Below, piece after piece: positions 29,206 to 64,000 of a stretch of 64,000 nucleotides of DNA. A program made the translations under genes and the position numbers. Below the pieces are notes generated by a model. The model saw only the letters and a program-made list of their open reading frames with translations, was not told where the DNA came from and made no database searches. Each line of letters starts with the position of its first letter. Position 1 is the first letter of the stretch. Origin of the DNA: Fischerella sp. CENA71 (GTDB taxonomy: Bacteria; Cyanobacteriota; Cyanobacteriia; Cyanobacteriales; Nostocaceae); contig JANBVI010000044.1 in the NCBI GenBank assembly GCA_024239075.1, forward strand, positions 62,001 through 126,000. The letters are read 5' to 3'.

Positions 29206-30090
29206 CTATTTAGCTACTACAACCTCATCAAAGATAGTATTTACAGACACTTCTTTCCAGGTATCGAGTTCTGCTTTGACTGAATCTAGCTTGGCACTAA
29301 TAGCAGAAATTGCATCTTCTCCTAGCACTAATCTCAGCGGTGGATTATCACTATTAACTGCTTTAATCATTGCCAGAGCGGCTTTTTTTGGATCACCTGG
29401 TTCGTTAAATTCTAATTTCGTATCTAGTATATCCCGCGCATCTTTACGCATTGCACCAATCACTGTTTCATAGTCATCAATTTGGATATCACTTATGGTC
29501 AGAGAACGTGTGACAAAGTCTGTACGAAATGCGCCAGGTTCAACTATTGTGATTTTGATACCCAAGGGTGTAACTTCCTGAGCTAATGCTTCGGAAATGC
29601 CTTCTATTGCAAATTTGGTACCATTATAGATTCCTGTGCCGGCATACGACACAAAGCCACCCACTGATGAAATATTAAGAATGTGTCCACTGCGTTGTTG
29701 TCGCATATGAGGTAGTACTGTTCGTAGTACTTCTAAGACAGCGAAAAAGTTGGTTTCAAACTGACGACGAACTTCTTCATTTCTGATTTCTTCTATTGCT
29801 CCTAAAACTCCATATCCAGCATTATTAACAAGTACATCAATGCGTCCAAAATTGGTAATCGCTTGTTTTACTGCTTCCCGTACCTCTTCAGGTTTAGTGA
29901 CATCAAGTTGCACCGCTAATGTGTGATCTGGAAAGCTTGCAGCTAAATCTTTGATCTGCTCTGGATTCCTTGCGGTTAGCACCACAGTTTCGCCTCGCTC
30001 AAGTACTGTTTCTGCTAATGCTCGACCTAATCCCTTCGAGCTACCAGTAATAAACCATACCCGTTTTTGAGAAATTGAGGATGTTACCAT
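29206..30090 (-). CDS. Short-chain dehydrogenase/reductase (classical SDR)
   Basis: A 294-residue NAD(P)-dependent oxidoreductase: cofactor motif ITGSSKGLGRALAE, NNAGYG, ISSVGGFVS, and catalytic YNGTKFAIE. All expected catalytic residues are present. It is the last gene of the PKS/NRPS operon, 17 bases after mbtH, so it may reduce a ketone or oxidise an alcohol on the product. Close relatives are also general-purpose oxidoreductases, so a tailoring role is inference from position. Confidence 0.85.
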   Translation of the reverse strand: MVTSSISQKRVWFITGSSKGLGRALAETVLERGETVVLTARNPEQIKDLAASFPDHTLAVQLDVTKPEEVREAVKQAITNFGRIDVLVNNAGYGVLGAIEEIRNEEVRRQFETNFFAVLEVLRTVLPHMRQQRSGHILNISSVGGFVSYAGTGIYNGTKFAIEGISEALAQEVTPLGIKITIVEPGAFRTDFVTRSLTISDIQIDDYETVIGAMRKDARDILDTKLEFNEPGDPKKAALAMIKAVNSDNPPLRLVLGEDAISAISAKLDSVKAELDTWKEVSVNTIFDEVVVAK

Positions 30091-30107
30091 AAAAATTCTT
30101 CGTTTAC

Positions 30108-30335
30108 TTATTGGTGGTTGTCAGTTATCTCCTGCATCTTTTTGCGGAGACTAAGCGGTCTCATGTCAGTCCATACTTCTTTGATGTAATTCAAACATTC
30201 TTGCTTCAAACCATTTTTTCCCACATCCTTCCAACCAAGAGGGTTTTGGCGGTCAGATGGCCAAATAGAATATTGTTCTTCATGATTCACTACAACTTTG
30301 TAAATTGTTGTGTCTTCTTTGTCGTCTTGATACAT
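30108..30335 (-). CDS. mbtH: MbtH-like protein
   Basis: A 75-residue member of the MbtH family, small chaperone-like partners that bind and activate NRPS adenylation domains. Signature residues are present: [36 protein letters not shown]. It lies in the same operon as two NRPS genes with A domains and is expected to serve one or both. The start is the ATG at 30335. Confidence 0.95.
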
Positions 30336-30373
30336 AATTGACCTGTTGGTTTTAATTAATTAAACTTTTATCT

Positions 30374-31747
30374 TTATTTGCTGGCTTTTACTTTGAGCGA
30401 ACTTAAATATTGAAATTCCAAAGCTGTTAATACAAATACAATTAACATAAATAAAATGTCTGCAAAAAGCATTCCATAATATATACCTCTGACACCTGAA
30501 ATTTTTGAAAACAAAAATACCATTGGCATAGTTAAAATTATGCTTCTTAACAAAATTACTAATAACACAGTTTTACCTTTACCTATAGAGAGAAAAAGAG
30601 TATTGCTAAAGAATGCTAAAGGCCATATGGGCATCAATATACTAAGAATTTTAAAATTTATCATATCATCCTGCACAAATTGAATATTTGGTAGAAGTAT
30701 TCCTAAAAATGTGTTTGGTGATAATTGTAAAGGCAACCAAATGAATATTAATAAAATAGTTCCAATGATTGCAAAAGTTAAATAGGATTTTTTTATTCTT
30801 ACATAATTTTGTGCACCATAATTCATTCCAATTATAGGTTGTAATGCTTGGGCAAACCCAATAATAGGAATAAATACAATTGAAATTATTTTTCCCGTTG
30901 CTCCAAAAAAAGCAATATCAGTATTTGTTCCATAGTCAGAAATTAAATTAAAAATTACGAAATCTTGAAGCAATATTGTAAATGGATAAAAGAGTTCAGA
31001 TATTCCTACTGATAAAATTGCATGCATTATATCTATGGCGATCGCTATTTTTTTGAAATTAACATAAATCGAACTTTTGCCAAAGATAAAATAAGCTAAA
31101 TTAACAATACTATAAACGAACATTGCTATAACTGTAGCAAGAGCAATTCCTTGGATTTGTAAATTAAATATAGTAGTAAATATATAATTTAAAAAAATAT
31201 TAATACTAACAAATAACCAATCAAATATTGCAGTTAGCTTAATTTTGCCTTCTGATTTAATGAGCCGACCACAAGCTTCTGCTAGTATCAAGAATACTGA
31301 CCCTAGTATATAAATTTTAAAGTATTTTGTACCCTCTAAAGCAACTTCACTACTACTTCCCATAAGTAGAATTAATTCTTGACTAAAGGTGTAACCAATA
31401 ATTGTGATCAACAATGCGATCGCAACACTCATCACTATTAAATTACTAAATATTTTAGACTGAGTTTCAACATCTCTAGAACCAATAGATCGACTTAGAA
31501 CAGAAGCAGAACCTACTCCAATAAATAGAGCAAATCCATTTACTATACCTGTCAGTGGCAGTGCGATTGAAATACCAGCTAAAGCATTTTCACTAATAAA
31601 TCGTCCTGCAAATAAAGCATCAATAAAAGTATTTAAACTCAGCATCAATATCCCCAGAGTGCTAGGAATTGATAACTTAAACATCAACTTGATAAGATTA
31701 CCATCAAGGATTTCATTTGTGATTTGATATTGTTTTTCAGTATTCAT
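30374..31747 (-). CDS. MATE-family multidrug/metabolite exporter
   Basis: A 457-residue integral membrane protein with about 12 hydrophobic segments in two repeats. It begins LDGNLIKLMFKLSIPSTLGI and contains IDALFAGRFISENALAGI in the first half and PIIGFAQALQPIIGMNYGAQN in the second, a pattern typical of MATE cation-coupled antiporters. Within the PKS/NRPS operon it probably exports the product and gives self-protection. Substrate and coupling ion are not deducible. Confidence 0.9.
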   Translation of the reverse strand: MNTEKQYQITNEILDGNLIKLMFKLSIPSTLGILMLSLNTFIDALFAGRFISENALAGISIALPLTGIVNGFALFIGVGSASVLSRSIGSRDVETQSKIFSNLIVMSVAIALLITIIGYTFSQELILLMGSSSEVALEGTKYFKIYILGSVFLILAEACGRLIKSEGKIKLTAIFDWLFVSINIFLNYIFTTIFNLQIQGIALATVIAMFVYSIVNLAYFIFGKSSIYVNFKKIAIAIDIMHAILSVGISELFYPFTILLQDFVIFNLISDYGTNTDIAFFGATGKIISIVFIPIIGFAQALQPIIGMNYGAQNYVRIKKSYLTFAIIGTILLIFIWLPLQLSPNTFLGILLPNIQFVQDDMINFKILSILMPIWPLAFFSNTLFLSIGKGKTVLLVILLRSIILTMPMVFLFSKISGVRGIYYGMLFADILFMLIVFVLTALEFQYLSSLKVKASK

Positions 31748-31812
31748 TTTTTAGAAATCATATTTATTATTGATTCTATTGTCTTTTCCAATAAATTAAA
31801 AATTACCTATAT

Positions 31813-32700
31813 TTAATCAAATCCCATTCCTTTCCGCATATTTTGATAATAATTTTCATAAAAATATTGATGTGGTACTAATCTTTTATACAAAGCATAC
31901 AGATTAAGTCGCCACGATGATTGCACGACAAAATATTGTCTTCTAGGTTTGCGATCTGACAAAGCCTGCAAAATGGTATTTGCTACTTTTTCAGCTGGTA
32001 AACCTGCGCTACGATTATCTTCTACCGAACCTTGCATATATATTTTGTAATTCTTGCCATATATCGCTTTAATTTCTGGTGACATATTCGCTAATGTCTG
32101 CTGATAACTAGCTTCTACTTTATTAGCCTGTTCTGGGGTTATTATTCCCCCTGGTAAAATAGAAATAACCTCAATTCCACTAGAATATAATTCCATTCGT
32201 AGAGAATCTGTAATTGCTTCAATCGCAAATTTTGAAGCAGATAAAAGACTTCTATAAGGTAAAGCTAATCTACCGCAAATTGCACTAATATTAACAATAC
32301 GACCCTTGGCTTTTCGTATTAATGGTAAAAATGCTTGTGTGACTGCAATTTGTCCAATAACATTGACTTCAAAATTAAATCTAATGTCATCTATAGGAAT
32401 ACATTCTAATGGTCCATCTATTGCTACAACTGCGTTATTAATTAATGCGGATAATCCTTCTTCACCAACCGCTAGCGAGACAAATTCCAATGCAGATTTA
32501 ATTTCTTCGGCTTTTGTTATGTCCATAATTATGGGTGTTAAATCACCAGATGCAACCTGCTTTAGTGACTGTGCATCTTTTTGTGTGCGGACTCCAGCGA
32601 AAACGCGATATCCTTGCTTGGCGAGTGAAAGCGCCGTTACTCGACCTAAACCTGTGGATGTTCCTGTAATGACAACTGCACCTTTATGATTTGGATTCAT
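31813..32700 (-). CDS. SDR-family protein with Leu in place of the catalytic Tyr
   Basis: A 295-residue short-chain dehydrogenase-like protein with an intact cofactor loop (VVITGTSTGLGRVTAL). The active-site Y-x3-K is altered: the expected Tyr is L153 in SLLSASKFA, with Lys K157 kept, and the NNAG motif reads NNAV. A Tyr four residues upstream (PYRS) is out of register. It may be non-catalytic, use another acid, or act as a scaffold. The start chosen is the ATG at 32700, preceded by GGAGGA at the right distance; a TTG 15 bases upstream is the alternative. It lies between P450 and MATE genes in the PKS/NRPS operon. Confidence 0.82.
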   Translation of the reverse strand: MNPNHKGAVVITGTSTGLGRVTALSLAKQGYRVFAGVRTQKDAQSLKQVASGDLTPIIMDITKAEEIKSALEFVSLAVGEEGLSALINNAVVAIDGPLECIPIDDIRFNFEVNVIGQIAVTQAFLPLIRKAKGRIVNISAICGRLALPYRSLLSASKFAIEAITDSLRMELYSSGIEVISILPGGIITPEQANKVEASYQQTLANMSPEIKAIYGKNYKIYMQGSVEDNRSAGLPAEKVANTILQALSDRKPRRQYFVVQSSWRLNLYALYKRLVPHQYFYENYYQNMRKGMGFD

Positions 32701-32703
32701 ACT

Positions 32704-32712
32704 GATTTCCTC
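32704..32712 (-). promoter_or_regulatory. Ribosome binding site fixing the SDR start
   Basis: The minus strand reads GGAGGAAATCAGT before the ATG at 32700, a strong Shine-Dalgarno match that rules for this start over the upstream in-frame TTG at 32715. Confidence 0.75.
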
Positions 32713-32816
32713 CAAAATTAAATGTATTTTTATATCCGAAAGCTAAATTTAGAAATACAATTTCTATCAACTAAATCTCAAAACTAAACCAAGCCAGAAA
32801 CTAATGACTGCGATTG

Positions 32817-34163
32817 TCATTGATCCTGACGGTGACTACACATAACCATTTTCACACCACTAGCAGGAGAACAAATTAAACCTGCAAATTTAGGACGTTC
32901 TGGGCGCTTAATGACTAACTCTAATTGATAGCGTGAAAGAATAGTTGCTAATATAAGTTTCATTTCAAATAAGGCAAAATTCGCACCAATACATACACGA
33001 GAACCGCCACCGAATGGCAGAAATTCGTAAGGAGAAAATTGTTTTTCTAAAAAGCGTTCTGGTTGAAATTCTTTGGGATTAGGATATAAATCTTCACGCT
33101 GATGGGTTGCATAAATATTACCAATAACTATCGTACCGGGATGCAGTTCATACCCCATGATCTGAACGGTCGATTCTACCAATCTAGGAAATGTAAACAA
33201 TTGAGTTGGATAAATTCGCAGAACTTCATTACATACAGCACTCAAATAGGGTAATGTAACAATACTCATGGGGTCAGGGTTTTCACCAAGACTATCAAGT
33301 TCTTTGAGTAGTTTTTCTCTCACATCTCTTAAGCGATGAATCCAGTACAAAGACCAACTAATAGCAGTTCCAGAAGCGTCAACAGCTGCAAATATCGGTG
33401 ATAGTAAAAGATCACGTACCTCTTCATTGCTTAATTTTTCACCTATTTCATCACAAGCAAGAATTAAATCCCCAAGTATATCAGTGCGTGAAAAATCTGC
33501 TTGCTGACGACGTTCTTCAATTTCAGTAGATAGCAATTGAAACAGTTCTTGTCGTAGGTGAAGGAGGTATCCTTGTGGACTCCATCGGCCTAAATCTTTT
33601 TCTCCAAAAATTTTATTAATAATTTTAACTATCAAAGATTGTCTATCGAGTTTCAGCAAAGATGCAAATAAATGTTTGATTTTGTTATAGCGTTCTCCTT
33701 CTTGTAAACCAATTACTCGTTCTATTCCCACTTTAAAAGTAATATCTTCAATGACCGAATATGCTACAAAAGGTTTTCCAATAACTTGTTCATTCATTAT
33801 CTTTTCTGTGAGTTCGCAAATACTTCGCCCACAGGCTTGCATCCGCCCTCCATGAAAAGCTTGCATTAAGAGTTTACGCCGATTTCTGTGAATTAAACCA
33901 TCAAGTTGCAGGACTCCTTGATTTCCTGTTATAAAAGCGAAATCTTGGTTCAATTCACCTCTAGCTAAAATTTCTTTGGTATTTGTAAAAATTTCTTTGA
34001 TACCCGAAGGATTACTAATGTAAACAATTGGTGTAGAAGCAGGTATTATGGTAACAATATCACCATAACGTTGGGAAATACCATCCAAATAACTAAAGGG
34101 ATTAGTCTCGAATTGCAAACTTAGTAACCAAAGTGGTATTTTCGGTCCAGGAGGTAGTTTCAT
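32817..34163 (-). CDS. Cytochrome P450
   Basis: A 448-residue soluble bacterial P450. The heme-binding loop is FLPFGGGSRVCIGANFALFE with the Cys thiolate, the K-helix ExxR is in NEVLRIYP, and the I-helix is near FAAVDASGTAISW. The N-terminus is proline-rich (KLPPGPKIPL) with no membrane anchor. It resembles the CYP110-like group common in filamentous cyanobacteria. Its ATG overlaps the stop of the upstream NRPS gene by one base (TAATG), implying translational coupling and a tailoring role (hydroxylation, epoxidation or desaturation of the product). Redox partners are not encoded here. Confidence 0.92.
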   Translation of the reverse strand: MKLPPGPKIPLWLLSLQFETNPFSYLDGISQRYGDIVTIIPASTPIVYISNPSGIKEIFTNTKEILARGELNQDFAFITGNQGVLQLDGLIHRNRRKLLMQAFHGGRMQACGRSICELTEKIMNEQVIGKPFVAYSVIEDITFKVGIERVIGLQEGERYNKIKHLFASLLKLDRQSLIVKIINKIFGEKDLGRWSPQGYLLHLRQELFQLLSTEIEERRQQADFSRTDILGDLILACDEIGEKLSNEEVRDLLLSPIFAAVDASGTAISWSLYWIHRLRDVREKLLKELDSLGENPDPMSIVTLPYLSAVCNEVLRIYPTQLFTFPRLVESTVQIMGYELHPGTIVIGNIYATHQREDLYPNPKEFQPERFLEKQFSPYEFLPFGGGSRVCIGANFALFEMKLILATILSRYQLELVIKRPERPKFAGLICSPASGVKMVMCSHRQDQ

Positions 34164-37100
34164 TAGTTTCTTTGATTCCCATTATTCAGATTGCACACAG
34201 CATTATCGATACAAACTCTTAAATTTCTAGCTAATTCCTGAATATGAGACTCAATAAAAATTGAGAAATGATCGCCAGAAATTTCTATAACTTGAATAGG
34301 TTGGCTAGAACATTTACCCCAACCTAGTAAGGGATCATCACTATGAAATTCTGGGCTTTCAAAATCATGAATAATCTCTTCTTTCGCTCGAAATAGAGTT
34401 ATAGACTGCTCATAAATAAGTGGTGTATAATTTCGCATAGCTTGAACATGAGCTTTGAACAATTTGTAATAACGGATAAAATCTTTAATTTCCGTATTAC
34501 TAAAAATCCAATTCATTTTTTTATTAATCAAATCAAGTTGCTCATTCAATGATAAATTTCGAAGTTCCTCAAAAGAAAGTGAAAAATCTATATTACTATC
34601 TGTTTTTATCGATTCAGCCATGCGAAGTAAAAATTTTGCATCGTCATCTTTTGTTGATTCAATGCATGTTTCTGAAAGTATGGCATCGATTATAACTAAT
34701 AAATTTACTGTTTCCCCTTCTCTTTGTAATTGCTGCGCCATTTCAAAAGCAAGTACACCGCCGTAACAATGACCACCTAAAAGATAAGGTCCTTTTGGCT
34801 GTACTTTCCGAATTTCTTGTAAGTAATAATTTGCTGTTTCTTCTACTGTTAGAATTTCCGGTTCTTCTTGGTTAGGGTTATGTTCTAAGGCATAAAATGG
34901 ATAATCTTCACCAAGTCTTCTGGATAAATTAATATAATGATTAATACCTCCACCAGCACCATGCATACAAAAGAAAGGTATTTTAGAACCACAAGAATTA
35001 ATTGCTACCAAAGGAGAATTAGAACTCTCACGAAATGGCTGACTGACAATTGCAGCTAATTTCTCAATTGTGGGATTTTCAAAAAGAGTGGATAAAGTGA
35101 GATTATGCCCAAATCTATCCTGAATTTGAGCCATTAAGCGTACAGCTAAAAATGAGTGACCACCCAAATTAAAGAAGTTATCTCTTACCCCTATTGGACT
35201 AGTATTCAGAAGGTTTTCCCAAAGTTTTACTAATGATAATTCTGTAAAATTACGAGGAGCAATTAGGTTTTCAGTAGTATTTGCTCGAATAAGTTTATCT
35301 GTTGGAAGGGCACGCTTATCTATTTTACCATTGGGTGTTAGTGGGAGTGCATTTAATACCACAAAGGCAGATGGAAGCATATAATTAGGTAACTTCTGTT
35401 GCAAATATGGCAACAGTTGTGCAGCGATGTTTTGTTTTTCTGTAACGATATAAGCTATTAAAAGCTGATTTTCTTGTTCATCTTTTTCGTTAATTACAAC
35501 TGATTCTTGTACATCTGGATGTTGCGTAATGATAGTTGCAATCTCAGCTAACTCTACTCGAAAGCCTCTGATTTTTACTTGCTCATCACAACGACCCAAA
35601 TACTCAAGATTCCCATCTTTGAGATAACGGACTAAATCGCCTGTTTTATAAAGCTTGGTTTCAGGAATAAAGGGATTATCGATAAATCTTTCTTGAGTTA
35701 ATTCGGGACGATATAAATATCCCTTCGCCAATCCGTCACCACCAATATAAAGTTCGCCGATAACTCCTACAGGTGTTGGTTGTAAATTGCGATTTAACAC
35801 ATAGATTTGAGTATTATCAATCGGACGACCGATGGGGACACTGTTTGCTTGGTCTGGTAATAAACTAGTGTCGTAGTGAGTAGCGTTAGCGGAAACTTCC
35901 GATGAACCATACAGGTTAATTAATTTTGCAAATGGCATTAATTCTCGGAAAGTTTCAACTAATTTAAGAGATAGTGCTTCACCGCTAGTTATCCAAAGTT
36001 TTAGTTGTAATAATTTCTTAGTTAGATGACTATAATTATCTAAAAGCAAACGCAGAAGTAAAGGTACAAGTATAATACGAGTAACTTTGTGCTGAAATAA
36101 AGTTTCTATAAATAATTTTGGGTCTAATAAAGTTTCATTGTTGATGATTACTGTAGGAAATCCTTTGAGTAAAGGAGCAAAAATTTCCCATACCGAATCT
36201 ACAAAACTAATAGCTGTTTTCTGACAACAAACTTCTTTTGGACTAAAAGGATAAGTTTTCCATAGCCAGTGCAAGCCATTTACTGTACCGCGATGAGTAC
36301 CAAGAACACCTTTAGGAGTTCCAGTTGAGCCAGAGGTATAAATAATATAGGCGAGATGATCAGGTTTTGAAATGTTGATGGGGTTTTCTGAACTTTCTTG
36401 CTTGATAATTTTCCAGTCATTGTCTAGCAAAATGAGCGTCATTTGTCCTACTCTGCGGGTAGAGACGGAGTGGCTTCCAAAGGTAGCCGCTTGCGCGTCT
36501 ATTTTATTTGTCATGTATCCAAATTTATTAACAAATGACGAATTACTAATGACCAATGACACTTGAGAATCCGAGAGCATAAATTTTAAACGCTCAACTG
36601 GATAACTTGGATCGAGAGGAATATATGCACCGCCAGCTTTAAGGATGGCTAAAATTCCCACTACCATATTTAGGTCACGTTCTAGACAGATAGCAACCAG
36701 GGTTTCTTGAGTTACGCCTTGTTTTTGTAAAAAGTGTGCTAGCTGATTAACTTTATGATTGAGTTGACGATATGTTAGTTGTTCTAACTGGCTAATTAAT
36801 GCTAGAGAGTCAGGTGTTCGTTTAACTTGTTGTTCAAATAATTGATTTAAAGTTACATTTTGATAGTCTGCACTAGTTTGATTAAGCTTAAATAATAATT
36901 GCTCTTTTTCAGAGTAATTTAGTAGAGATAAATTACAGATACGCTGCTCTGGATTAGCAATAATATTTGCTAGCAAAGTCTGAAAGTGATTGAGAAATTG
37001 GCTAATAGTTGTAACATCAAAAATATCTGTATTGTACTCCAAACACCCTGTTAAACCTTCTTGAGATTCAAACATCGACAGAAAAATATCAAGTTGAGCT

Positions 37101-38338: not shown

Positions 38339-38422
38339 TGTTAATATATGATGAAAGTTTTTTGTGGCGATCGTAGTCGTATTTAATTTATATGTAAATC
38401 AAATTAAAATTCGAAAATTAGC

Positions 38423-38472
38423 TTGTAATAAGCACTAATCTGCGAGAAGCAGCGCTGAAGCGCTTACTACAA
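38423..38472. repeat. Long-loop inverted repeat between the methyltransferase and NRPS genes
   Basis: TTGTAATAAGC (38423-38433) pairs with GCTTACTACAA (38462-38472), 10 of 11 positions, and AGCGCTGAAGCGCT in between forms an inner hairpin. It lies in the 160-base gap within the operon. It may attenuate read-through or be a REP-like element. Confidence 0.6.
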
Positions 38473-38498
38473 ACATTGAACTTATACTGACTTATGTA

Positions 38499-39257
38499 TT
38501 ACTTAAGAGAGGTTTTTTGACAAACGAAGCAAGCTATATCTTCGGTTTCTCCAAATTCTCTAGTATTATAGTAATTAAAATTTGTAAAGCCGACATTTTT
38601 CAAAGCGGACTGAACTTGTTCTAAAAAGTGATCTTTTCTTAACCAAACTGTATCTGAACGCTGCCAACTTTTTTCAAAAAATTCAAATCCTGTAACTTTG
38701 ATCTCCCATATCCTCTCTTCTGGTTTGTAGTAAAATAATTCTATTAAGGAACATTCATCATTAATACTGACAATATTAAAATTGTTTTTCTGGGCATTTT
38801 CATGTAACCAATCTGTTATAGGTATATTAAACACAAATACGCCATTATCTCGAAGTGCAGCATATACATTTTGGAATGCCATTGTTAAATCTTCATTGTT
38901 TTGGATAAAATGAAAAACATCATTTGCCAAAACCGCATCAAAGATCGCTGGTAAATCAAACTGACGTATATCACTAAGAATAAATTCGCTTTCAGGCGCG
39001 TTTTTTCTAGCGTACTTTAGCAGTCCTTTAGAAGCATCGATTCCAGTAACTTTATATCCTCTAAGGTTAAGTTGTTGCGCTAAATGTCCGCAACCACAAC
39101 CAAGTTCAAGAATATACGCTCCCGCAGGAAGTTGAGATAATAATATTTGCTCTAAAGCAGGTATTATACCTTTTACCAAATCTTCTGGTGTATTCTTTAA
39201 TTCGTTCTGTAAACGAGCAATAGATTCATAGTCGGGAATATTTGTTAACAGAGACAT
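38499..39257 (-). CDS. Class I SAM-dependent methyltransferase
   Basis: A 252-residue free-standing methyltransferase with motif I ILELGCGCGHLAQQL, acidic post-I GYKVTGIDAS and motif FDAVLANDVFHFI. The C-terminal part (ERIWEIKVTGFEFFEKSWQR) resembles the small-molecule Methyltransf_11/25 group. Placed between the last PKS module and the terminal NRPS module, it probably methylates an oxygen, nitrogen or alpha-carbon of the growing chain or product. None of the PKS modules carries a built-in methyltransferase. The site cannot be predicted. Confidence 0.88.
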   Translation of the reverse strand: MSLLTNIPDYESIARLQNELKNTPEDLVKGIIPALEQILLSQLPAGAYILELGCGCGHLAQQLNLRGYKVTGIDASKGLLKYARKNAPESEFILSDIRQFDLPAIFDAVLANDVFHFIQNNEDLTMAFQNVYAALRDNGVFVFNIPITDWLHENAQKNNFNIVSINDECSLIELFYYKPEERIWEIKVTGFEFFEKSWQRSDTVWLRKDHFLEQVQSALKNVGFTNFNYYNTREFGETEDIACFVCQKTSLK

Positions 39258-39309
39258 AGACTACTTTTCCTGGTATCAAATAAATGTTTACAATCAAATA
39301 ATCCAGATA

Positions 39310-43929: not shown

Positions 43930-43951
43930 TAGAGTAAACTCAGTTTGTGCT

Positions 43952-48352: not shown

Positions 48353-48403
48353 AATAAGTACCTACATACAATTTGCCATTTTTTGTTAGGCTCTGAGTTG
48401 CTT

Positions 48404-50059: not shown

Positions 50060-50093
50060 TTTCTACTCCACAAAATATTTATTTTTTTATTTT

Positions 50094-54749: not shown

Positions 54750-54770
54750 AATTAATTTTACTGGTTGCTA

Positions 54771-57536
54771 TTAAACATTCTGTTGTCTCTTTTGTAAAAA
54801 GCGTTGTTTTAATCTTGCTTTTCCAGTCTCTAACTTTTCATTTAATTCATTGCTCTGATTCTCAAAACTATCGTCTTCTTCTTGGTTTAAAAATCGGGCT
54901 ATAGAACTAATCGTTGGATATTTAAATAAGTCAGTTATTGCTAAATCAGGTTTAAACAGTTCCCGCAGTTTGCTATAAACCTGAAGCACATTAAGTGAAT
55001 GACCACCAAGATCAAAAAAATTATCTTGGATACCAACTTTTTCCACCTTAAGTATTTTTTGCCAAATATCAGCTATTGTATGTTCCATTTCATTTCGCGG
55101 TAACACGTAAGCTGTTTCTAGTATTGGGCGGAGATTATCTGGCTTAGGTAAAGCTTTACGATCTACCTTACCGCTTGGTGCTATGGGTAGACTTTCTAGC
55201 ATCACAAAAGTAGAAGGTAACATATGGTCAGGTAATTTTTCTTTTAAAAAATTACGCAATTCACTAATACTAGGAACTGGTTCTGTTTTTGCAACCACAT
55301 AAGCAACTAATTGCAAGTTACCTGGTTCTTCTTGATGAACTATGACTATATTTTCACGCACATTTGGGTGTTGACTTAAGAATGTTTCAACTTCCCCAAG
55401 TTCAACTCGGAAGCCCCGAATTTTTACTTGATGATCAATACGTCCCAGGAATTCTATATTGCCATCAGGAAGCCACCTTCCTAAATCTCCTGTTTTATAG
55501 ATTAAATCTCTACGATTTTCTGGTAGCTTCTTCCTAGCATCTGCAAACGGATTAGGAACAAAACTTAAATTAGTTTTTTCTTCATTTTTCCAATACCCTT
55601 CACCGACACCAATTCCCGATACACAGATTTCTCCAGGAACGCCGATGGGTAATAGCTGCATTTGCTCATCAAGAATGTAGAGATTTAAATTTGCTAATGG
55701 TTTGCCAATTGGTACTGTTCGCTGATTTTCGTCAAAAGGCTTATTAACAATAAACTGAGTAATATCATCCGCTGCTTCGGTGGGACCATAGGCGTTAACT
55801 ATTTTGATTTCAGGATATATTTGGAGCCACTTATTTACCCAACTTACAGATACTGGTTCCCCCACAACCATCATCCATTTCAAATCAGGTAATTCTCTGT
55901 CCTGAGTTTCTAGCCCTGAAGTATATTCAAGTAAGCCCCCAAATAATGCTGGTACTAATTCAACAACTGTAATTTTTTCTGATTTAAGTGCTTTAAATAA
56001 TTTATTAGCGATCGCAACAGTTTCAATATCTACTATGACTGTTTTACCACCTATTAAAAGTGGTGCTAAAAATTGCCATACAGAAATATCTGTTGAGGAA
56101 GGAGCGCTTTGTAGAAAACAAAATTCCTCAGTTAATTTTAATTCATCAAATTGGGCATAGATATGATTAATTGCACCATCATGCCTAACTATTGCTCCCT
56201 TGGGTAATCCTGTGGAACCAGAAGTATAGAGCATGTAAGCTGGATCTACAGCATTATTAATAGATTCTAAATTATCATCAGATAATTGTTCAAAATCCAA
56301 TTTATTATATATCTTTAAAGTTTCTTGACTAGCAAGCAGTATATTTTCAGTAGTTACATTATCTAAACAAATAATAGATGATAGTTGCGAACAATTTCCT
56401 ACTAAGCCTGATAAATTATCTAAGAGCGGGTAATCTGTGAGCAAAAATCTTACTTCGCTATTAGATAGCATATATTTAATTCTGCTTGGTGGGTAAGTAC
56501 TATCAATAGGTACATAGGCTCCACCTGCTTTGTATATAGCAATAATCGCAATCAGGAAATTAATATCGCGGTCTTTGAAAATACCAATAAATTCCCCTTT
56601 TCCAACTCCTAATTTACGCAACAATCTAGCTATTTGATTAGCTTTTTGATTTAGTTCTCGATAGGTTAACTTACTTTTTTTATGAATAACACTTATATTA
56701 TGTGGAGTTTGAGATACTTGCTTTTCAAATAATTGATTTATTGTCTGATTAACTGGATATTCTTGAATATTATTATTAAAATCTTTTAATAATTTATTTT
56801 GTTCCAGGTCTTTCAAAAACATAATATCTGATATTTTAATATTAGAATTATTAATAATATTCTCAATAATATTTATATAACATCTACTCATTAATTTTAT
56901 ATTGTCATAGTGAAATAAATCCTCCTTATATTCTATATTAGCGCTAATACTTTCATCATTAACGGAAAAAGAAATTGTAATATCATTTTTTAAGTGTTCT
57001 AAATTATTTTTACAATGAATATTTTCTAGTAAAATGACTATATCAAAAATGGGACAACGATTAGGAAATGTTGGTATCTCTAATAATTTAATTAATTCAT
57101 CAAAATTATAATTTTGATGAGTGTAAGCAGCGATAGTTGCATCTTTAACTTGTAACAGAAAATCTTTTAAAGAAAGCTGAGGTGTTACCTGATTACGCAA
57201 AGGGATCACCTTGCTATTTATGCTATCAATCTCAATTTTATTATATACTGGTATTCCGACAATAATATCATTATTTCTAGTATATTTTTGCAACAATATA
57301 TTTAATGCAGATACAACTATCAAATAGATAGAAAAGTAAGAACCATTAGCTAGATTGATAATCTGTTGAGATAAATCATTTGATAAATTAAAGCGAAAGG
57401 ATTTGTTTTGATGACTGGAGAATAAAGGTCTTATATAATCCAGTATCAAATTTGTTTTTGGTAACTCTCCCGATAGTTTATTGAGCCAGTAAATTTTTTG
57501 AGAGAATAAGTTTTTGGAGTGTATATGCACAGCCAT
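54771..57536 (-). CDS. NRPS with half a C domain, A domain (diaminobutyrate-like code) and PCP
   Basis: 921 residues. Residues 1-225 are only the C-terminal half of a condensation domain (starting at YWLNKLSGELPKTNLILD); the N-terminal half with HHxxxDG is missing. The adenylation domain (~265-775) has LYTSGSTGLPKG, NAYGPTEAADD and KTGDLGRW. Pocket residues by GrsA alignment are D-I-W-E-M-V-A-D-D-K. This is 8/10 to DIWELTADDK, the code I recall for 2,4-diaminobutyrate A domains such as in pyoverdine synthetase. PCP (~795-860) has NFFDLGGHSLN. The EctB-like aminotransferase directly upstream would supply diaminobutyrate. Condensation is presumably provided in trans by the stand-alone C protein at 59794. 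Confidence 0.9.
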   Translation of the reverse strand: MAVHIHSKNLFSQKIYWLNKLSGELPKTNLILDYIRPLFSSHQNKSFRFNLSNDLSQQIINLANGSYFSIYLIVVSALNILLQKYTRNNDIIVGIPVYNKIEIDSINSKVIPLRNQVTPQLSLKDFLLQVKDATIAAYTHQNYNFDELIKLLEIPTFPNRCPIFDIVILLENIHCKNNLEHLKNDITISFSVNDESISANIEYKEDLFHYDNIKLMSRCYINIIENIINNSNIKISDIMFLKDLEQNKLLKDFNNNIQEYPVNQTINQLFEKQVSQTPHNISVIHKKSKLTYRELNQKANQIARLLRKLGVGKGEFIGIFKDRDINFLIAIIAIYKAGGAYVPIDSTYPPSRIKYMLSNSEVRFLLTDYPLLDNLSGLVGNCSQLSSIICLDNVTTENILLASQETLKIYNKLDFEQLSDDNLESINNAVDPAYMLYTSGSTGLPKGAIVRHDGAINHIYAQFDELKLTEEFCFLQSAPSSTDISVWQFLAPLLIGGKTVIVDIETVAIANKLFKALKSEKITVVELVPALFGGLLEYTSGLETQDRELPDLKWMMVVGEPVSVSWVNKWLQIYPEIKIVNAYGPTEAADDITQFIVNKPFDENQRTVPIGKPLANLNLYILDEQMQLLPIGVPGEICVSGIGVGEGYWKNEEKTNLSFVPNPFADARKKLPENRRDLIYKTGDLGRWLPDGNIEFLGRIDHQVKIRGFRVELGEVETFLSQHPNVRENIVIVHQEEPGNLQLVAYVVAKTEPVPSISELRNFLKEKLPDHMLPSTFVMLESLPIAPSGKVDRKALPKPDNLRPILETAYVLPRNEMEHTIADIWQKILKVEKVGIQDNFFDLGGHSLNVLQVYSKLRELFKPDLAITDLFKYPTISSIARFLNQEEDDSFENQSNELNEKLETGKARLKQRFLQKRQQNV

Positions 57537-57584
57537 ATTTTTACTTTGTAATCGATTGCTTTGTAAATTAATTAGTATGTCAAG

Positions 57585-58865: not shown

Positions 58866-58900
58866 ACTGATTATCTATACTGCGTATTTTTTTAATATTC

Positions 58901-59782
58901 TTAAGAAACATAATTTAGATAAGATTTATATAATTCAAAAATAATTTGAGGGGGAACTTTAAATACTAAACCCATTGTCAATAGTAAGTTATAGTATAAA
59001 TTTTGAACTGGCATACCTTTGGTTATTGCGCCTAAAGCCGTCAGTGAACTTTTTTGAGTATGCCAATCAATATTAAAAGATATAGAAGTATCTAAACTTC
59101 TAACATGATGTAATGTTCCAGGAGGCATATATAGAATATCACCAGGATTAACAATAAACTTAATCGGTCTAGCATTTTTATAATTAGGATATTTATTAAA
59201 ATCTGGATTTTCTGGATTCACTAAAAACCATCGCCAGCCTTGACGATAACAATATTTGGCATCTTCTGGTAGTAATATCGTAAATTGTTTGCGTCCGATA
59301 ATTTGAAAAAAAATATTGTTAGTCAATAGACAATCAAAATGTAATGGTGTAATACTATTAGATGAACCTAAGAAAAACTGACAATAACGCCACCACTTGT
59401 ACCAGTACCATTTTGGTAAATAATCAAACGGAAATGGTTGAACATCTTCTATTAAAGAAGGTATTAAGCTAAATAAAGGTAAGTCATGACAATATGGCGG
59501 TAGAGGATTATTTTGAGGGTCTGTTTGATAAGTTTCTATTAGTTCTATATAACTTGTCATTGTCAAACGACATATATCAATTTTCTTATTACTAAATTTC
59601 TTGGCGTAAATATTTAGTGCGGGGGATAAATTTTTGAAAGAATTTAATGACCATTTATCAAAGCCACGCCAATTAGAAATTAATCCAGAGATTATGACTG
59701 GTTTAGCTAATTCAACATAATTTTTATGAAATTCATCACTTGATAGTTTATATCTTCTGTCTATTTCTGATGAAATGATCAT
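58901..59782 (-). CDS. Cupin-like/JmjC-type Fe(II)/2-oxoglutarate oxygenase
   Basis: A 293-residue protein of the cupin_8 (FIH-like) group. The iron facial triad is visible: H148-F-D150 in ITPLHFDCLL and a distal His (H225 or H226) in PPGTLHHVRSL. GDILYMPPGTLHH is typical, and IGRKQFTILLPED carries the 2-oxoglutarate-binding Lys candidate. Unlike the WelO5-type halogenase elsewhere in the window, the Asp is kept, so hydroxylation rather than halogenation is expected. It lies between the stand-alone C protein and the diaminobutyrate aminotransferase; it may hydroxylate diaminobutyrate or the carrier-bound residue. The C-terminal 40 residues are hydrophobic and aromatic. Confidence 0.85.
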   Translation of the reverse strand: MIISSEIDRRYKLSSDEFHKNYVELAKPVIISGLISNWRGFDKWSLNSFKNLSPALNIYAKKFSNKKIDICRLTMTSYIELIETYQTDPQNNPLPPYCHDLPLFSLIPSLIEDVQPFPFDYLPKWYWYKWWRYCQFFLGSSNSITPLHFDCLLTNNIFFQIIGRKQFTILLPEDAKYCYRQGWRWFLVNPENPDFNKYPNYKNARPIKFIVNPGDILYMPPGTLHHVRSLDTSISFNIDWHTQKSSLTALGAITKGMPVQNLYYNLLLTMGLVFKVPPQIIFELYKSYLNYVS

Positions 59783-59793
59783 ACTTTATTTCC

Positions 59794-61197
59794 TTAAAAT
59801 ATTGAAGCGAGTTGCCAGTTAAATGATGCTTCTTTTTCTAAAGTTGTTGATATTTGCTGTTGGTGTGGTGTTGAGAATGATAAGTCTTTGATTTGAAGAT
59901 TATGATTAGTTATTATTGCCTGTAGCAAGATTTCAAAATCAGTTAGGATTCCGGTAATTGTAGTAATATCAAATCTATAATTGTCATAGGAAATTGCTAC
60001 TATAATTTCTGATTCTGGATAAATAACTAAATTTAAAGGGTAGTTATTTCTGTAATAAATTCCAGTTGCTTCAAATGCTATATTACCTGTCCAATTTTCT
60101 GCAAATTCACTAACTGGAAAGTTTTCAACTACAACAATAGTTTCAAACAATGGTAAATTTCGTGGTATTTCACTCCAACCTTGAATTTGTGTCAGTGGAG
60201 TGTATTCATGCTGACGCGTTTCTACTAATTGAATCTGAAAATCTTGTAACCATGACAACAAATATTGCTCTGGATTTATTTTGACGTTGATTGGTAAAGT
60301 ATTTATAAATACACCAACCATTGATTCTACTTCTGCTAAATCTACTGGTCTTCCCGTTACAGTACATCCATAGATTATATTATGGCGACAAGTATATCGA
60401 CTCAGGAGAATAGACCAAATTCCATTAACTAATGTGGCAAGAGTAAAATGATTTTGCGTAGCAAAAGATAGTAGTGATTTTGTAATTTCTTTTGAGAGTT
60501 TAATTCTCTCTTCATCATACCTTTCTTTCTGCTTATGTGATTGGTTATTTTCTAGGTAAGTTAGAGGAGTTGATGCTTTTATTCCTTGTAGCTCTTGTCG
60601 CCAAAAGCTTTCAGTCTTAGCTATATTTTGTTGCTGTAACCAGTCGATATAATTTCTAAAAGGACGGGCTGGCAGTAATTTTATTTCTTTGGATTCACAA
60701 AGTGTAGTGTAAATTTTTAAACATTCCTCTAATATTATTGGGCCAGACCATCCATCGATGATGATATGGTGATTACTCCAAATAAATTCATAGCGATCGC
60801 CAGCAAGACGAATCAAAGTTAAACGCATTAAACATGGTTGCGAAAAATCAAAACATAATTGGCGATCGCTCTCGAGAAATGATTTTAATTGCTCTTGTTG
60901 TTTTGCTGGTTCGATATCACGCCAATCATATTGATTCAAGCTAATTTTTACTTTTTTATAGACAACTTGTAACGGGTTATCAATGTCTTCCCAATAAAAT
61001 CCTGTACGTAATATTGTATGTCTATCTACTACTTGTTGCCATGCTTGTTCAAAAGCCTCTATATTTGGATGACCATGTAAAGTTAAGGTGTGGTGAAAGA
61101 AGTATAATGCTGATTCACTCGCATACAAACAGTGAAATAGCATACCCTTTTGGACTGGTGTAAGTTCATATATATCTTCGACATTTTCTGTTTTCAT
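59794..61197 (-). CDS. Stand-alone NRPS condensation domain
   Basis: A 467-residue complete single C domain without A or PCP. It starts DIYELTPVQKGMLFH, has the active motif SNHHIIIDGWS, VGVFINTLPIN, and ends after the C7 region. The LTPVQKGMLFH opening is typical of D-C-L or dual-type C domains that follow epimerization domains, which agrees with the E-like domain ending the upstream protein. Its ATG overlaps the upstream stop by four bases (ATGA). It probably condenses the upstream acyl chain with diaminobutyrate on the NRPS at 54771, which lacks a complete C domain. Confidence 0.9.
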   Translation of the reverse strand: MKTENVEDIYELTPVQKGMLFHCLYASESALYFFHHTLTLHGHPNIEAFEQAWQQVVDRHTILRTGFYWEDIDNPLQVVYKKVKISLNQYDWRDIEPAKQQEQLKSFLESDRQLCFDFSQPCLMRLTLIRLAGDRYEFIWSNHHIIIDGWSGPIILEECLKIYTTLCESKEIKLLPARPFRNYIDWLQQQNIAKTESFWRQELQGIKASTPLTYLENNQSHKQKERYDEERIKLSKEITKSLLSFATQNHFTLATLVNGIWSILLSRYTCRHNIIYGCTVTGRPVDLAEVESMVGVFINTLPINVKINPEQYLLSWLQDFQIQLVETRQHEYTPLTQIQGWSEIPRNLPLFETIVVVENFPVSEFAENWTGNIAFEATGIYYRNNYPLNLVIYPESEIIVAISYDNYRFDITTITGILTDFEILLQAIITNHNLQIKDLSFSTPHQQQISTTLEKEASFNWQLASIF

Positions 61198-64000
61198 TGT
61201 GCTTGTTTACCACCTAGTTGGTTAATTTTTGCCAGAAATTTATCTAAGTCTTGTTGGTTCAAGTTAGCTCTAGGAAAGTCGGAAGGTGTATATTTTTCTG
61301 CTGACAAAGACTGACAATGAGCAATTATGCTTCGTATAACTTCAATATAACTTGCTGCTAAAGTTTCAATTGTTTCTCGCCGATGAACTGCTGTATTGTA
61401 AATCCAATTAAGTTGCAGTTGTTTTTGAACAATAATTCCGTTTATTTCCAGTAAGTAAAATCGATTTTTATTTGTACTTTGACTGAGTTTTATAGACTGA
61501 TCAGTGTAATTAAATAAAGATGACTGTGATATTACAGGGTCAAAATTACCTAAATAGTTAAAATTGACTTGAGGTTGAGGGCAAGATTTTAACTTTGAAT
61601 TTATTTCTGGATTATTGCTGATATAGCGCAGTATATCGTATCCAATACCTTTATTTGGAATTTTACGTAAATACTCTTTGACTGCGATTAATGCATTTCC
61701 TAGATCACAAGCTTCTGTGATATCTAAAATTACTGGAAAGCAAGTTGTAAATAAACCAACTGTACGAGAGAAAGATATGTCTTTGGAATTTTTGAAAACT
61801 ATATCTCGACCATTATCTTCAACATCTACCCATAGTTGCTGCTCTCCCGTCCACTTTGCAAAAGTTTGGATTAAAGCTGTTAGTAGAATATAGATTATTT
61901 CGGTATTATAAGCTTTGTTAACATTTTTTATTAAGGCTTGAGTTGCTGTTTTATCTAGAGAGACTGATACTATGTCACTATTCGCTACTATATTTTCATT
62001 TGCAGAATAGTCAACAGGTAGACTATGGAAAGGTATTTGGGATTTTGCTAACCAGTAGTCCTGCTCATGCACCATTTCGGAAGTTTGAGCATACTCTTGA
62101 ATAGACTGTGTCCACTGCTGGAAAGAAGCGGTTTGATCAGATAATTGTATTGCTTCAGATTGACTGAGTTGTTGGTAGACTGTTTGCAAATCTTCTAACA
62201 AAATCTGCCAGGAAACAGCATCTACTAAAAGATGGTGAATGGTAATTAGTAGGTAGTTGTTTTGCTGCGATCGCAATTCAATAAAAGCAACATTTACCAG
62301 TAAACCTTCACTGAGGTTAGACTTGCTTTGTATTCCTACAACTGTAGATTCAAAAGCATGTTGTTGTTCATTTTCTGAAAGTGCAGACAAATTCACATGC
62401 TCATATACCATTATATCATTAGTATGAACTTCTATTTGCTGCCATTTAGATTCTTTTTGAAGAAAACGCAAACGAAAAACATCATGATGTTCAATTACAT
62501 ATCTGACAGCTTCTTGTAAGATTTTGGGATTGCAGGTTTGTTGTATTTCCAGTAGTAAAGATTGGTTAAATGAATCTATGTTTGACTGATTTTGAGTTAA
62601 TAATCGATGCTGAACAGGTGTGAGGTAAACTTCTCCAAGTTTCAAACTATTTTTATTTGTTTCAATTACACCTATGGCTGTCACTAATTCAGCAATATTT
62701 GGGTGCATAAACATTTGCTGAGAAGTTAATTTCATGCCTAATGTGTTAGCCTTGGCAACAATTTGAATTGCAAGAATTGAATCTCCTGCCAATTCAAAAA
62801 AATTGTCATGAATACCAATTTTTTCAATACCTAGAAATTGTTGCCAAATGTCAGCTAGAGTCTGTTCAAATTTGTTACGAGGCGCAACATAAGCATTTGC
62901 TAAGTTTGGACGTGGATGGCTGGATTTTGAAATATTTGTTTTTGATGTCTGTGATATTAATGCTAATTCTTTTTCGAGATAATTGAAAGAATTATTATGC
63001 TCAATTACTGTTTGAAAGTCTTGCGTTGACACAATAACATGAGGTAAGCTACTGAACAAAATGCGATTAAAAGCTTCGGCACCTTCTTGAGATAATATTC
63101 CTTTTTTGAGTTCCTGTTCACGTTGGAGCTTTAATTGTTCAGGTAGCTCTGTCTCTACTGCCATTCCTACATCTTGCCAAGAACCCCAATTTATTGCCAC
63201 TGTATATTGGTCAGATTTAGAAGTACAATAATCTGCATAAACATCCAAAAATGCATTAGCGGCACAATAATCTACCTGTCCAAATTCACTCAAAATAGAA
63301 CTTTGAGATGAACAAAGTACTAAGAAATCTAAATTAATATTTTTTGATTTTAAAATTTCTTTTAATACTAATGTTCCTTGGATTTTTGGTGCAAATACAC
63401 TATTTGCTATATCCTCTGTTTTTAGTTGAATTATACCACCGCCAGCAATCCCTGCTGCATGGATAACACCATTGATTTGACCAAATTTTTCTAAAGCTTC
63501 AGTAACAACTATCTGCATTTCTTCGTAGCTGGCAACATCGGCACTTTTAACCTCAACTTCTGATCCTAACTCTGTAAATTCAAGTATTTTGTTGATTTTG
63601 CGACTAACCGAATCTTTACTATCATGTGCTTCTAACCATTGTTTCCAGTGCGATCGCTCAGGTAATCCCTTTCTACCAATTAAAATTAACTTAGCTTGTA
63701 CTGTCTTTACTAAATGTTCTGCTAGGACCAAACCTATACCACCAAGTCCACCAGTAATTAAGTAAACTCCTCCTTTTTTTAACTTAGTTTTACCTAAAAT
63801 ATCTTTATCTAAACGGATAGGTTCAAAGCTTTGAACCCAGCGATGATGTCCACGATAAGCAAGTATATTTTCAGTTTGCTGTGTTTTCAGTTCCGTAATC
63901 AGATAATCTATCAATTTCTCTGTTGATGGAATATTTGTACTAGGGATGACTACATCAATCAGACAGGAATTAACATTTGGATATTCTTTGGGAATTATTT
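61194..64000 (-). CDS. PKS module end: KR - carrier protein - epimerization-like domain (5' end outside window)
   Basis: At least 935 codons, open to the right edge. A TTG at 63914 is only an apparent start: the frame continues as the structural KR half (PKEYPNVNSCLIDVVIPS), parallel to the other PKS proteins. KR looks active (YLITGGLGGIGLVLAE, FGQVDYCAANAFLDV). The carrier has FFELAGDSILAIQ, the form usual before E domains. The final ~430 residues resemble an NRPS epimerization domain (LTPVQHRLL, HHLLVDAVSWQILLEDL, SRTVGLFTTCFPV, KGIGYDILRYI, VNFNYLGNFD). The E motif HHxxxDG has Ala for Gly. An E domain after a KR-containing PKS module is unusual and may come from recombination with an NRPS. 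Confidence 0.88.
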   Translation of the reverse strand, partial: IIPKEYPNVNSCLIDVVIPSTNIPSTEKLIDYLITELKTQQTENILAYRGHHRWVQSFEPIRLDKDILGKTKLKKGGVYLITGGLGGIGLVLAEHLVKTVQAKLILIGRKGLPERSHWKQWLEAHDSKDSVSRKINKILEFTELGSEVEVKSADVASYEEMQIVVTEALEKFGQINGVIHAAGIAGGGIIQLKTEDIANSVFAPKIQGTLVLKEILKSKNINLDFLVLCSSQSSILSEFGQVDYCAANAFLDVYADYCTSKSDQYTVAINWGSWQDVGMAVETELPEQLKLQREQELKKGILSQEGAEAFNRILFSSLPHVIVSTQDFQTVIEHNNSFNYLEKELALISQTSKTNISKSSHPRPNLANAYVAPRNKFEQTLADIWQQFLGIEKIGIHDNFFELAGDSILAIQIVAKANTLGMKLTSQQMFMHPNIAELVTAIGVIETNKNSLKLGEVYLTPVQHRLLTQNQSNIDSFNQSLLLEIQQTCNPKILQEAVRYVIEHHDVFRLRFLQKESKWQQIEVHTNDIMVYEHVNLSALSENEQQHAFESTVVGIQSKSNLSEGLLVNVAFIELRSQQNNYLLITIHHLLVDAVSWQILLEDLQTVYQQLSQSEAIQLSDQTASFQQWTQSIQEYAQTSEMVHEQDYWLAKSQIPFHSLPVDYSANENIVANSDIVSVSLDKTATQALIKNVNKAYNTEIIYILLTALIQTFAKWTGEQQLWVDVEDNGRDIVFKNSKDISFSRTVGLFTTCFPVILDITEACDLGNALIAVKEYLRKIPNKGIGYDILRYISNNPEINSKLKSCPQPQVNFNYLGNFDPVISQSSLFNYTDQSIKLSQSTNKNRFYLLEINGIIVQKQLQLNWIYNTAVHRRETIETLAASYIEVIRSIIAHCQSLSAEKYTPSDFPRANLNQQDLDKFLAKINQLGGKQAQ

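Follow-up and report, generated by a model that had tools for sequence, protein, structure and literature searches.

A hybrid polyketide/nonribosomal peptide operon of Fischerella sp. CENA71 with diaminobutyrate and beta-alanine cassettes, a candidate metallophore cluster

We analyzed a hybrid polyketide synthase (PKS)/nonribosomal peptide synthetase (NRPS) operon of the cyanobacterium Fischerella sp. CENA71, which is considered here as a candidate metallophore gene cluster. An earlier note on the window, meaning the whole 64,000-nucleotide stretch analyzed (bases 62001-126000 of contig JANBVI010000044.1, or C44, a 185250-bp contig of the 7.47-Mb genome), had read a colinear assembly line joining diaminobutyrate (Dab), ketide units, and beta-alanine (beta-Ala). 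The open reading frames (ORFs) were found where that note had placed them, with large minus-strand ORFs separated by short gaps from position 29206 rightwards (positions are those of the window unless prefixed by C44). With the neighboring stretches taken in, the operon was found to span C44:91206-144942 (about 54 kb; window-equivalent 29206 to 82942), of which 19 kb lie past position 64000, such that the window covers only its second half.

In the order of transcription, the operon begins beyond the window with (i) a gene (C44:138259-144942) of fatty acyl-AMP ligase (FAAL)-acyl carrier protein (ACP)-condensation (C)-adenylation (A)-peptidyl carrier protein (PCP)-epimerase (E) architecture, whose N-terminal 575 residues match FAAL models below the whole-protein cut-offs and are followed by the ACP; (ii) a C-A-PCP-C gene; (iii) a TauD/TfdA oxygenase (PF02668); and (iv) a C-like-A-PCP gene. 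PKS1 follows, with ketosynthase (KS)-acyltransferase (AT)-ketoreductase (KR)-ACP-E organization (C44:123194-129256); its 3′ part occupies 61194..64000 and the gene continues to window-equivalent 67256. After PKS1 come a standalone C domain (59794..61197), a JmjC/Cupin_8 oxygenase (58901..59782), a Dab transaminase (57585-58865), a half-C-A-PCP protein (54771..57536), PKS2 (KS-AT-KR-ACP; 50094..54749), and a PanP-type decarboxylase (48404-50059). The remainder consists of PKS3 (KS-AT(broken)-KR-ACP; 43952..48352), PKS4 (KS-AT-KR(dead)-ACP; 39310..43929), an S-adenosylmethionine-dependent methyltransferase (38499..39257; PF13649/PF08241), a terminal C-A-PCP-thioesterase (TE) protein (34163..38338), a cytochrome P450, a short-chain dehydrogenase (SDR), a MATE exporter, and a second SDR; all of those in the window are on the minus strand. 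Pfam analysis confirmed the C, A, PCP, TE, KS, AT, KR, P450, methyltransferase, Cupin_8/JmjC, SDR (two), and MATE assignments, and with them the release domain and the tailoring set (P450, methyltransferase, JmjC-like oxygenase, and two SDRs) that had been proposed. The predicted backbone order was seen in the window but is not complete there, as FAAL, Ala (with E), Gly, Asx (with TauD), and a ketide come before it. Similarly, the KR/carrier/E-like part proposed upstream of the Dab genes is present, yet belongs to a full fourth PKS module, PKS1, which spans position 64000.

To find relatives of this operon, 388 genomes of the order were searched for JmjC, and 84 had a match at E 1e-20. Eight JmjC places, including that of CENA71, were 66-100% identical and the remainder at most 34%. 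All seven of the relatives fetched share the arrangement standalone C - JmjC - Dab transaminase - half-C-A(DIWE..)-PCP. Large operon blocks were common to eight fetched loci (G295a, G295b, G363, G374, G303, G253, G321, and Nostoc sp. UHCC 0926), so the cluster belongs to a family and is not unique; this family was found in named genomes from several cyanobacterial families. Two movable sub-cassettes recur: (i) JmjC and Dab transaminase between the standalone C and the half-C-A(Dab)-PCP; and (ii) the keto PKS with the beta-Ala module and a cysteine TE, although this beta-Ala end was unseen in G253 and on the short, truncated second contig of G295. The heads of the clusters differ, with G253 and G321 carrying chorismate-binding (salicylate-synthase type) enzymes, KAS-III-like proteins, and Cys-type codes (Pfam confirmed an AMP ligase in G253), and G303 having an acyl-CoA dehydrogenase beside a HAD-like protein.

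The use of Dab and beta-Ala, each with its own biosynthetic enzyme in the operon, was borne out. The decarboxylase scored 613.9 bits against the 606.1-bit cut-off of the NCBIfam model for PanP aspartate 1-decarboxylase (TIGR03799), which predicts beta-Ala supply, and the transaminase scored 573 bits against the 552.2-bit cut-off for EctB-type Dab--2-oxoglutarate transaminase (TIGR02407). Neither has a second strong copy in the genome, PanP being single at E 1e-20 and the next matches to the transaminase being just 31-32% identical. A route to 1,3-diaminopropane, by way of Dab transaminase and a Dab decarboxylase, was rejected because the decarboxylase passes the PanP cut-off; its score with the Dab decarboxylase model was only 158 bits against 900. 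A-domain codes were taken at motif-fixed columns, with positions following the GrsA convention, and read DLFNNALTYK, DILQLGMIWK, DLTKIGEVGK, DIWEMVADDK, and VDWIISLANK from the first module to the last. By the usual code tables, we take DLFNNALTYK to denote Ala, DIWEMVADDK to be of the Dab type, and VDWIISLANK to be of the beta-Ala type. The same extraction from the cyanochelin B cluster served as a control and returned codes read as two each for Asp and Gly and one each for Ser, Phe, and Cys, in agreement with the published structure. The TauD-associated Asx module code, DLTKIGEVGK, is read as Asn type, partly on the basis of PMC12283262. That paper assigns DILQLGMIWK to Gly, fits DLTKIGEVGK also to cyano-alanine (derived there from Asn), has the Dab code DVWQMIGDDK accept beta-hydroxy-Dab, and finds DLTKVGHVGK in Asp and Asn domains alike, the Asp/Asn split by code being imperfect. 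When five codes were sought in print, only one was found, in one paper. The beta-Ala assignment is further supported by co-occurrence of its code with PanP, a VDW-type code being detected in 12 of the 19 neighborhoods of further PanP matches (stretches of 4.8 to 20 kb; UHCC 0926 omitted as a duplicate), with none in the fetched stretch of the other seven. PanP was present in 39 of the 388 genomes at E 1e-100; of its 40 places, 26 were read (6 in clusters already fetched and 20 more) and 14 were unread.

Two of the PKS modules were found to be defective in ways that the earlier note had anticipated. In PKS3, the AT profile matches in two short fragments and the GHSxG motif reads GDGIGE, such that an AT is predicted to act in trans. 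The AT is in two pieces in all four PKS3 orthologs (CENA71, G295a, G363, and G374); GDGIGE is also present in G374, and no site was found in G295a and G363. In PKS4, the KR-like region (GGLDNIEVV) lacks the nucleotide-binding motif and is predicted to leave a beta-ketone; its counterparts in G363 and G321 had no KR match. The adjacent methyltransferase may possibly O-methylate the beta-keto enol. The ATs of PKS1, PKS2, and PKS4 carry HAFH, the malonyl motif. The E domain that follows PKS1 reads HHLLVDA and EDNGR, compared with HHLVVDG and EGHGR in the E domain of the first gene, and is missing from the PKS1 homolog of G363 and of loci L077 and L105; its function as a working epimerase is doubtful.

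The terminal NRPS protein carries the beta-Ala code and a TE in which serine is replaced by cysteine (GGHCYGG). Among 30 stretches examined for TE-bearing NRPS proteins, 13 such proteins were found, counted as TE matches of more than 60 bits in A-domain proteins with a profile that was built from the CENA71 TE alone and favors similar TEs. All but one of these combine a terminal beta-Ala code ending in N with the TE motif GG[HW]C[YF]GG, and each of the 12 follows a PKS with either no KR match (six) or a degenerate KR motif (six, UHCC 0926 being the least degenerate). The thirteenth, from G372, has Ser and no readable code. Across 24 beta-Ala codes, the 12 terminal ones all read ..SLAN and the 12 internal ones all read ..SLAD, a difference that is a possible chain-end marker. 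Elsewhere in the CENA71 genome, the six other TE matches with a readable motif have Ser, while one has no motif and three weaker ones were unread.

The co-occurrence of keto PKS, beta-Ala module, and cysteine TE in 12 of 12 cases fits either a linear beta-keto amide or a Dieckmann closure to a piperidine-2,4-dione. It is likely that the cysteine TE merely hydrolyzes off a linear beta-alanine acid, with the upstream beta-ketone chelating or O-methylated and no cyclization partner. In keeping with this, the closest solved TE, 4zxh (ABBFA_003403), was aligned with Cys at the same position, so Cys is not peculiar to these clusters and alone is no proof of new chemistry; moreover, the methyltransferase gene adjoins the keto module. 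The 12-of-12 pattern itself speaks against linear release, though common descent accounts for part of this pattern and could account for it. Less probably, and in our estimate distinctly unlikely, the terminus closes a ring by Dieckmann condensation, in which the KR-less or KR-dead PKS, the beta-Ala module VDW[IV]ISLANK, and the cysteine TE would form the conserved machinery that converts a beta-ketoacyl-beta-alanyl thioester to a 3-acyl-piperidine-2,4-dione. Such a dione is the six-membered homolog of a tetramic acid and a bidentate enol-dione; with beta-hydroxy-Dab it would make a new iron-binding head, and the P450 would perhaps oxidize it towards a hydroxypyridone. If true, Dieckmann closure would explain why clusters with quite different other chelators share this tail, and would explain the want of Asp-type hydroxylation in the CENA71 cluster.

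The Dab cassette was examined for the oxygenase and for the C domain. The JmjC protein (PF13621; JMJD5 matches in the PDB at E 1e-24) has a metal triad of H148-x-D150 plus a distal H225/H226, and the HxD and distal His were kept in all 29 aligned rows of the JmjC tree. In this tree, JmjC proteins of the CENA71 type, including those of Rhizobium and Methylocystis, formed one clade (100/99) apart from generic cupin_8 proteins. Scanning contigs for JmjC yielded 30 loci, of which 28 are cyanobacterial and have flanking sequence; of the other two, one is a cyanobacterial fragment that stops within the gene and one is from Aquimarina. Some of the 30 duplicate assemblies of the G genomes, e.g., L094 and G303. 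The Dab transaminase was directly downstream of JmjC in all 28 loci with flank, the standalone C preceded it in 27 (L101 starts inside JmjC), and half-C-A-PCP followed the transaminase in 26 (in L089 and L093 the stretch stops with the transaminase or shortly beyond it). The short G295 contig encodes another, distant cupin_8 protein (L052 16565-17467), roughly 10 kb away from its JmjC gene.

Linkage of JmjC to Dab transaminase genes extends beyond the cyanobacteria. Plasmid records matching JmjC numbered 29, of which five were looked at; a Mycetohabitans plasmid cupin beside an NRPS was set aside as a generic cupin of 28% identity. On a Rhizobium gallicum plasmid, the JmjC homolog (47%) adjoins ectB, with an aspartate-semialdehyde dehydrogenase and an ATP-grasp protein, and an IucA/IucC-type siderophore synthetase lies 13 kb away; in R. 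tropici, ectB is 11 kb from JmjC among transposases. In these stretches of about 33 kb (JmjC and ectB at L107 1238-16858 and L106 15908-29151) no NRPS was annotated and the C and C-A-PCP queries had no match, the PLSDB annotation being incomplete; the Rhizobium loci perhaps make a small hydroxy-Dab product of their own. Methylocystis iwaonis has the order DabAT-MbtH-JmjC-NRPS, with the Dab-like code DIWELCADDK in the NRPS. Because Rhizobium and one Methylocystis also link the two genes, the JmjC protein is probably a Dab hydroxylase, with Dab beta-hydroxylation as its proposed role. The alternative that it hydroxylates another residue, such as Asn or a ketide position, appears unlikely. It draws on the cupin_8 proteins proposed for Leu and Asn hydroxylation in laxaphycins (in the available part of PMC7524897) and on the Dab module of UHCC 0926, which is without JmjC, but does not sit well with the linkage seen in cyanobacteria and in Rhizobium, with the Dab-like code near JmjC in M. 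iwaonis, or with G253 and G321, which carry JmjC and no DLTK-type module. No report of a JmjC enzyme linked to Dab was found in the open-licence literature searched; the beta-hydroxy-Dab residue itself is not new, a code for it already being in print (PMC12283262).

A trans C domain preceding Dab had been predicted, and a standalone C gene is present. The in-module C domain needs correction, as it was found to be a C-terminal half only (profile 188-456, with no HHxxxDG). In a tree of 65 rows, six such half-C domains clustered as a separate clade with support of 100/100 (several flagged for odd letter composition), and the full C domain (PF00668), encoded separately just upstream of JmjC, grouped in the tree with domains that follow epimerases. 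The Dab module (half-C-A-PCP) has no E domain, in which it departs from the laxaphycin-type arrangement where the partner module carries one. A likely division of labor is bond formation by the standalone C, with the half lobe serving as a docking platform. Docking of JmjC as the sole function of the half-C was weakened, since UHCC 0926 has the half-C without JmjC. Among 25 Dab modules from named loci, five had no C match ending just before the A domain (L105 has a partial match further upstream), and the space preceding the A domain was similar in all 25.

The genes beyond the FAAL gene were then considered. A TonB-dependent siderophore receptor (TIGR01783, 469 bits versus the 223.5 cut-off) is encoded divergently, 1.1 kb from the FAAL gene, and beyond it lie an Fe3+-dicitrate-type binding protein, a DUF1636 protein, and an ABC exporter, with FecE/FecD/FhuB-like ATPase and permeases 11.8 to 14.6 kb from the operon. 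For the binding protein, the permeases, and the ATPase, the matches to iron-siderophore models stay under the equivalog cut-offs. Only two plug-domain genes occur in the genome. A TonB receptor was found beside all seven Dab-type clusters with flank (CENA71, G295a, G374, G303, G253, G321, and UHCC 0926), with the G253 receptor positioned after the core genes. A contig end cuts G363 and the second G295 locus, which were excluded from this count, and the search was not systematic for the PanP-only stretches. Regarding chelator genes, the CENA71 cluster has only one Asn-type Asx hydroxylase, and the chorismate-binding (salicylate-type) genes are in G253 and G321. The earlier note missed the product class because the receptor, importer, and TauD hydroxylase lie beyond position 64000.

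Among the known systems compared is cyanochelin B (Leptolyngbya sp. NIES-3755, AP017310.1; PMC12628792), whose cluster, as described in the accessible part of that paper, likewise has a FAAL start, an NRPS/PKS hybrid line, TauD-type hydroxylases, and a divergent receptor gene. An interface-type domain precedes the hydroxylated Asx module in both, and the CENA71 Asx N-domain joins the cyanochelin B clade at 100/100 in the tree. In contrast, cyanochelin B is described as having two Asp modules with Asp code, a thiazoline, Phe/Ser/Gly, and reductive release; codes of the Dab or beta-Ala type are missing from its cluster, and the annotated genes of its fetched stretches include neither a Dab transaminase nor a decarboxylase or cupin. 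That the operon is simply a cyanochelin, i.e., a beta-hydroxy-Asp lipopeptide siderophore chelating and photolyzing via hydroxyaspartate with Dab and beta-Ala as filler residues, is possible but rather unlikely. Beyond the features shared with cyanochelin B, the TauD protein shares 51.5% identity with a cyanochelin B hydroxylase region and 67.8% with a hydroxylase from a cluster of Nostoc NIES-3756 that has fetB and Fur-family genes nearby, and the overlap of Asp and Asn codes noted above for DLTKVGHVGK (PMC12283262) leaves room for Asp. However, there is a single hydroxylase module of Asn-type code, and in G321, which carries the Dab and beta-Ala blocks, and in G253, which carries the first of these, salicylate-type/Cys genes stand at the start and no TauD match was found. 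The cluster would work like a cyanochelin-type system, yet is not filed as a cyanochelin because it does not read as Asp by code and has only one TauD and one interface-type module, versus two hydroxylated Asp in cyanochelin.

Further clusters were compared. Fatuamide A (PMC11877528) and the lusichelins (PMC12210259) are likewise cyanobacterial hybrid PKS/NRPS metallophores with a TonB receptor, and fatuamide A also has a TauD enzyme; in the accessible descriptions they differ in a salicylate-type start, and no Dab, beta-Ala decarboxylase, or JmjC is named. The CENA71 cluster matches neither of these by cluster description, nor cyanochelin B by direct comparison. Laxaphycin/scytocyclamide clusters likewise encode Cupin_8 (JmjC-like) proteins, for which amino-acid hydroxylation in NRPS assembly has been proposed; in the available part of PMC7524897, the proposed substrates are Leu and Asn, the modules bear epimerase domains, and there is no link to Dab or a split C domain. 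A further relative is the unannotated cluster on plasmid pn1 of Nostoc sp. UHCC 0926 (NZ_CP117772.1, 353878 to at least 411050), which shares FAAL-Ala, the TauD/interface modules, Dab transaminase, half-C-A(Dab)-PCP, PanP, PKS4, the beta-Ala-Cys-TE protein (75%), P450, and TonB. It differs in having no JmjC found, Asn-type and Asp-type hydroxylation modules, a Thr-type code, and extra Ala and Gly. By their listing, both papers found for UHCC 0926 deal with sunscreens.

Overall, the operon probably assembles and exports a lipopeptide-polyketide metallophore, most plausibly an iron siderophore, that would re-enter the cell by way of the neighboring TonB receptor and the Fec/Fhu-like importer. 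In the proposed pathway, FAAL would load a fatty acid, to which Ala (epimerized) and Gly would be added, followed by an Asn-type residue hydroxylated by the TauD enzyme docked on the interface-type C domain. One malonyl unit would be reduced to the hydroxyl before Dab, which would be made by the EctB-type enzyme, joined via the standalone C domain, and beta-hydroxylated by JmjC. Two malonyl units reduced to the hydroxyl would come next, the second fed by an AT in trans, and then a malonyl unit kept as beta-ketone and perhaps O-methylated. PanP-derived beta-Ala would be added last, with the cysteine TE releasing the product for P450/SDR tailoring and MATE export.

Several observations weigh against this reading or parts of it. 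With respect to iron, the NIES-3756 cluster, which has a 68% identical TauD and shares the TauD/Asx part while lacking the Dab part, has no TonB match in a 37-kb stretch that is cut upstream, and no Fur-box-like site above background was detected between the FAAL and TonB genes, the best site having 13/19 matches when about a third of random 1248-bp windows reach at least 13. The Asn-type code of the hydroxylated module suggests that the classic alpha-hydroxycarboxylate ligand may be absent; by code only, DLTKIGEVGK departs from the DLTKIGHVGK of both cyanochelin B Asp modules. With respect to Dab, JmjC occurs with an NRPS and no DabAT match in 33 kb in Methylocystis bryophila, and a JmjC stretch of Aquimarina muelleri has no Dab transaminase match. 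Conversely, UHCC 0926 keeps the Dab transaminase and half-C-A-PCP with no JmjC match in the 71 kb read, so hydroxylation is inessential to the Dab module and JmjC is an optional modifier. Finally, no obvious substrate is seen for the PKS1 E domain, which sits behind a PKS carrier, a place where an alpha stereocenter is not expected. That the product is instead a nonsiderophore bioactive lipopeptide with incidental TonB/importer neighbors has a parallel in the laxaphycins, antifungal cyanobacterial lipopeptides with cupin_8 proteins in their cluster, and agrees with the missing Fur box, but is highly unlikely in view of the receptor beside all seven flanked Dab-type clusters, the relatives with salicylate-type/Cys starters, and the presence of only two such receptors in the genome.

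The 3′ end of the operon and its surroundings add the following. The P450 gene (32817..34163; PF00067, E 2e-72) follows the TE gene, as P450 genes do in G295a, G363, G374, G303, G321, and UHCC 0926. Next come SDR1 (31813..32715; PF00106; 54-88% in G295a, G363, G374, G303, and G321), the MATE exporter (30374..31747; PF01554; 53-80% in G295a, G363, G374, and G321), and SDR2 (29206..30090; PF00106), the last operon gene, with a 67-87% homolog at the same end in G295a, G363, G374, and G303. A DUF364/DUF4213 protein (Pfam: putative heavy-metal chelation; 28421-29173, plus strand) adjoins this end on the opposite strand, beside two LuxR-type genes (26481-27410, plus strand; 27463-28197, minus strand), one with a receiver domain, which are candidate operon regulators. 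Further NRPS genes lie outside the window at both ends of C44 (C44:1-21804 and 183133-185250), cut by the contig ends; the A codes at the left end read DLGFAGCVTK, DLFNNALTYK, DMLWLGGILK, DAFFLGVTFK, and DTEDIGTVVK.

Cyanobacterial metallophores are described as under-explored in the accessible part of an eLife survey (PMC12971057), and no such Dab/beta-Ala cluster was named in a title or abstract start of the open-licence literature searched. From its sequence features, we place the CENA71 cluster among the cyanobacterial NRPS/PKS metallophore clusters, a broad class, and judge that what appears new is the Dab/JmjC/split-C cassette and the terminus. The first cassette predicts a JMJD5-like oxygenase that would hydroxylate Dab together with a C domain split over two genes, for which no report was found, and the second predicts a conserved unit of beta-ketone, beta-Ala, and cysteine TE. 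Both cassettes provide sequence handles by which more such clusters may be found, and their predictions are testable with single purified proteins.

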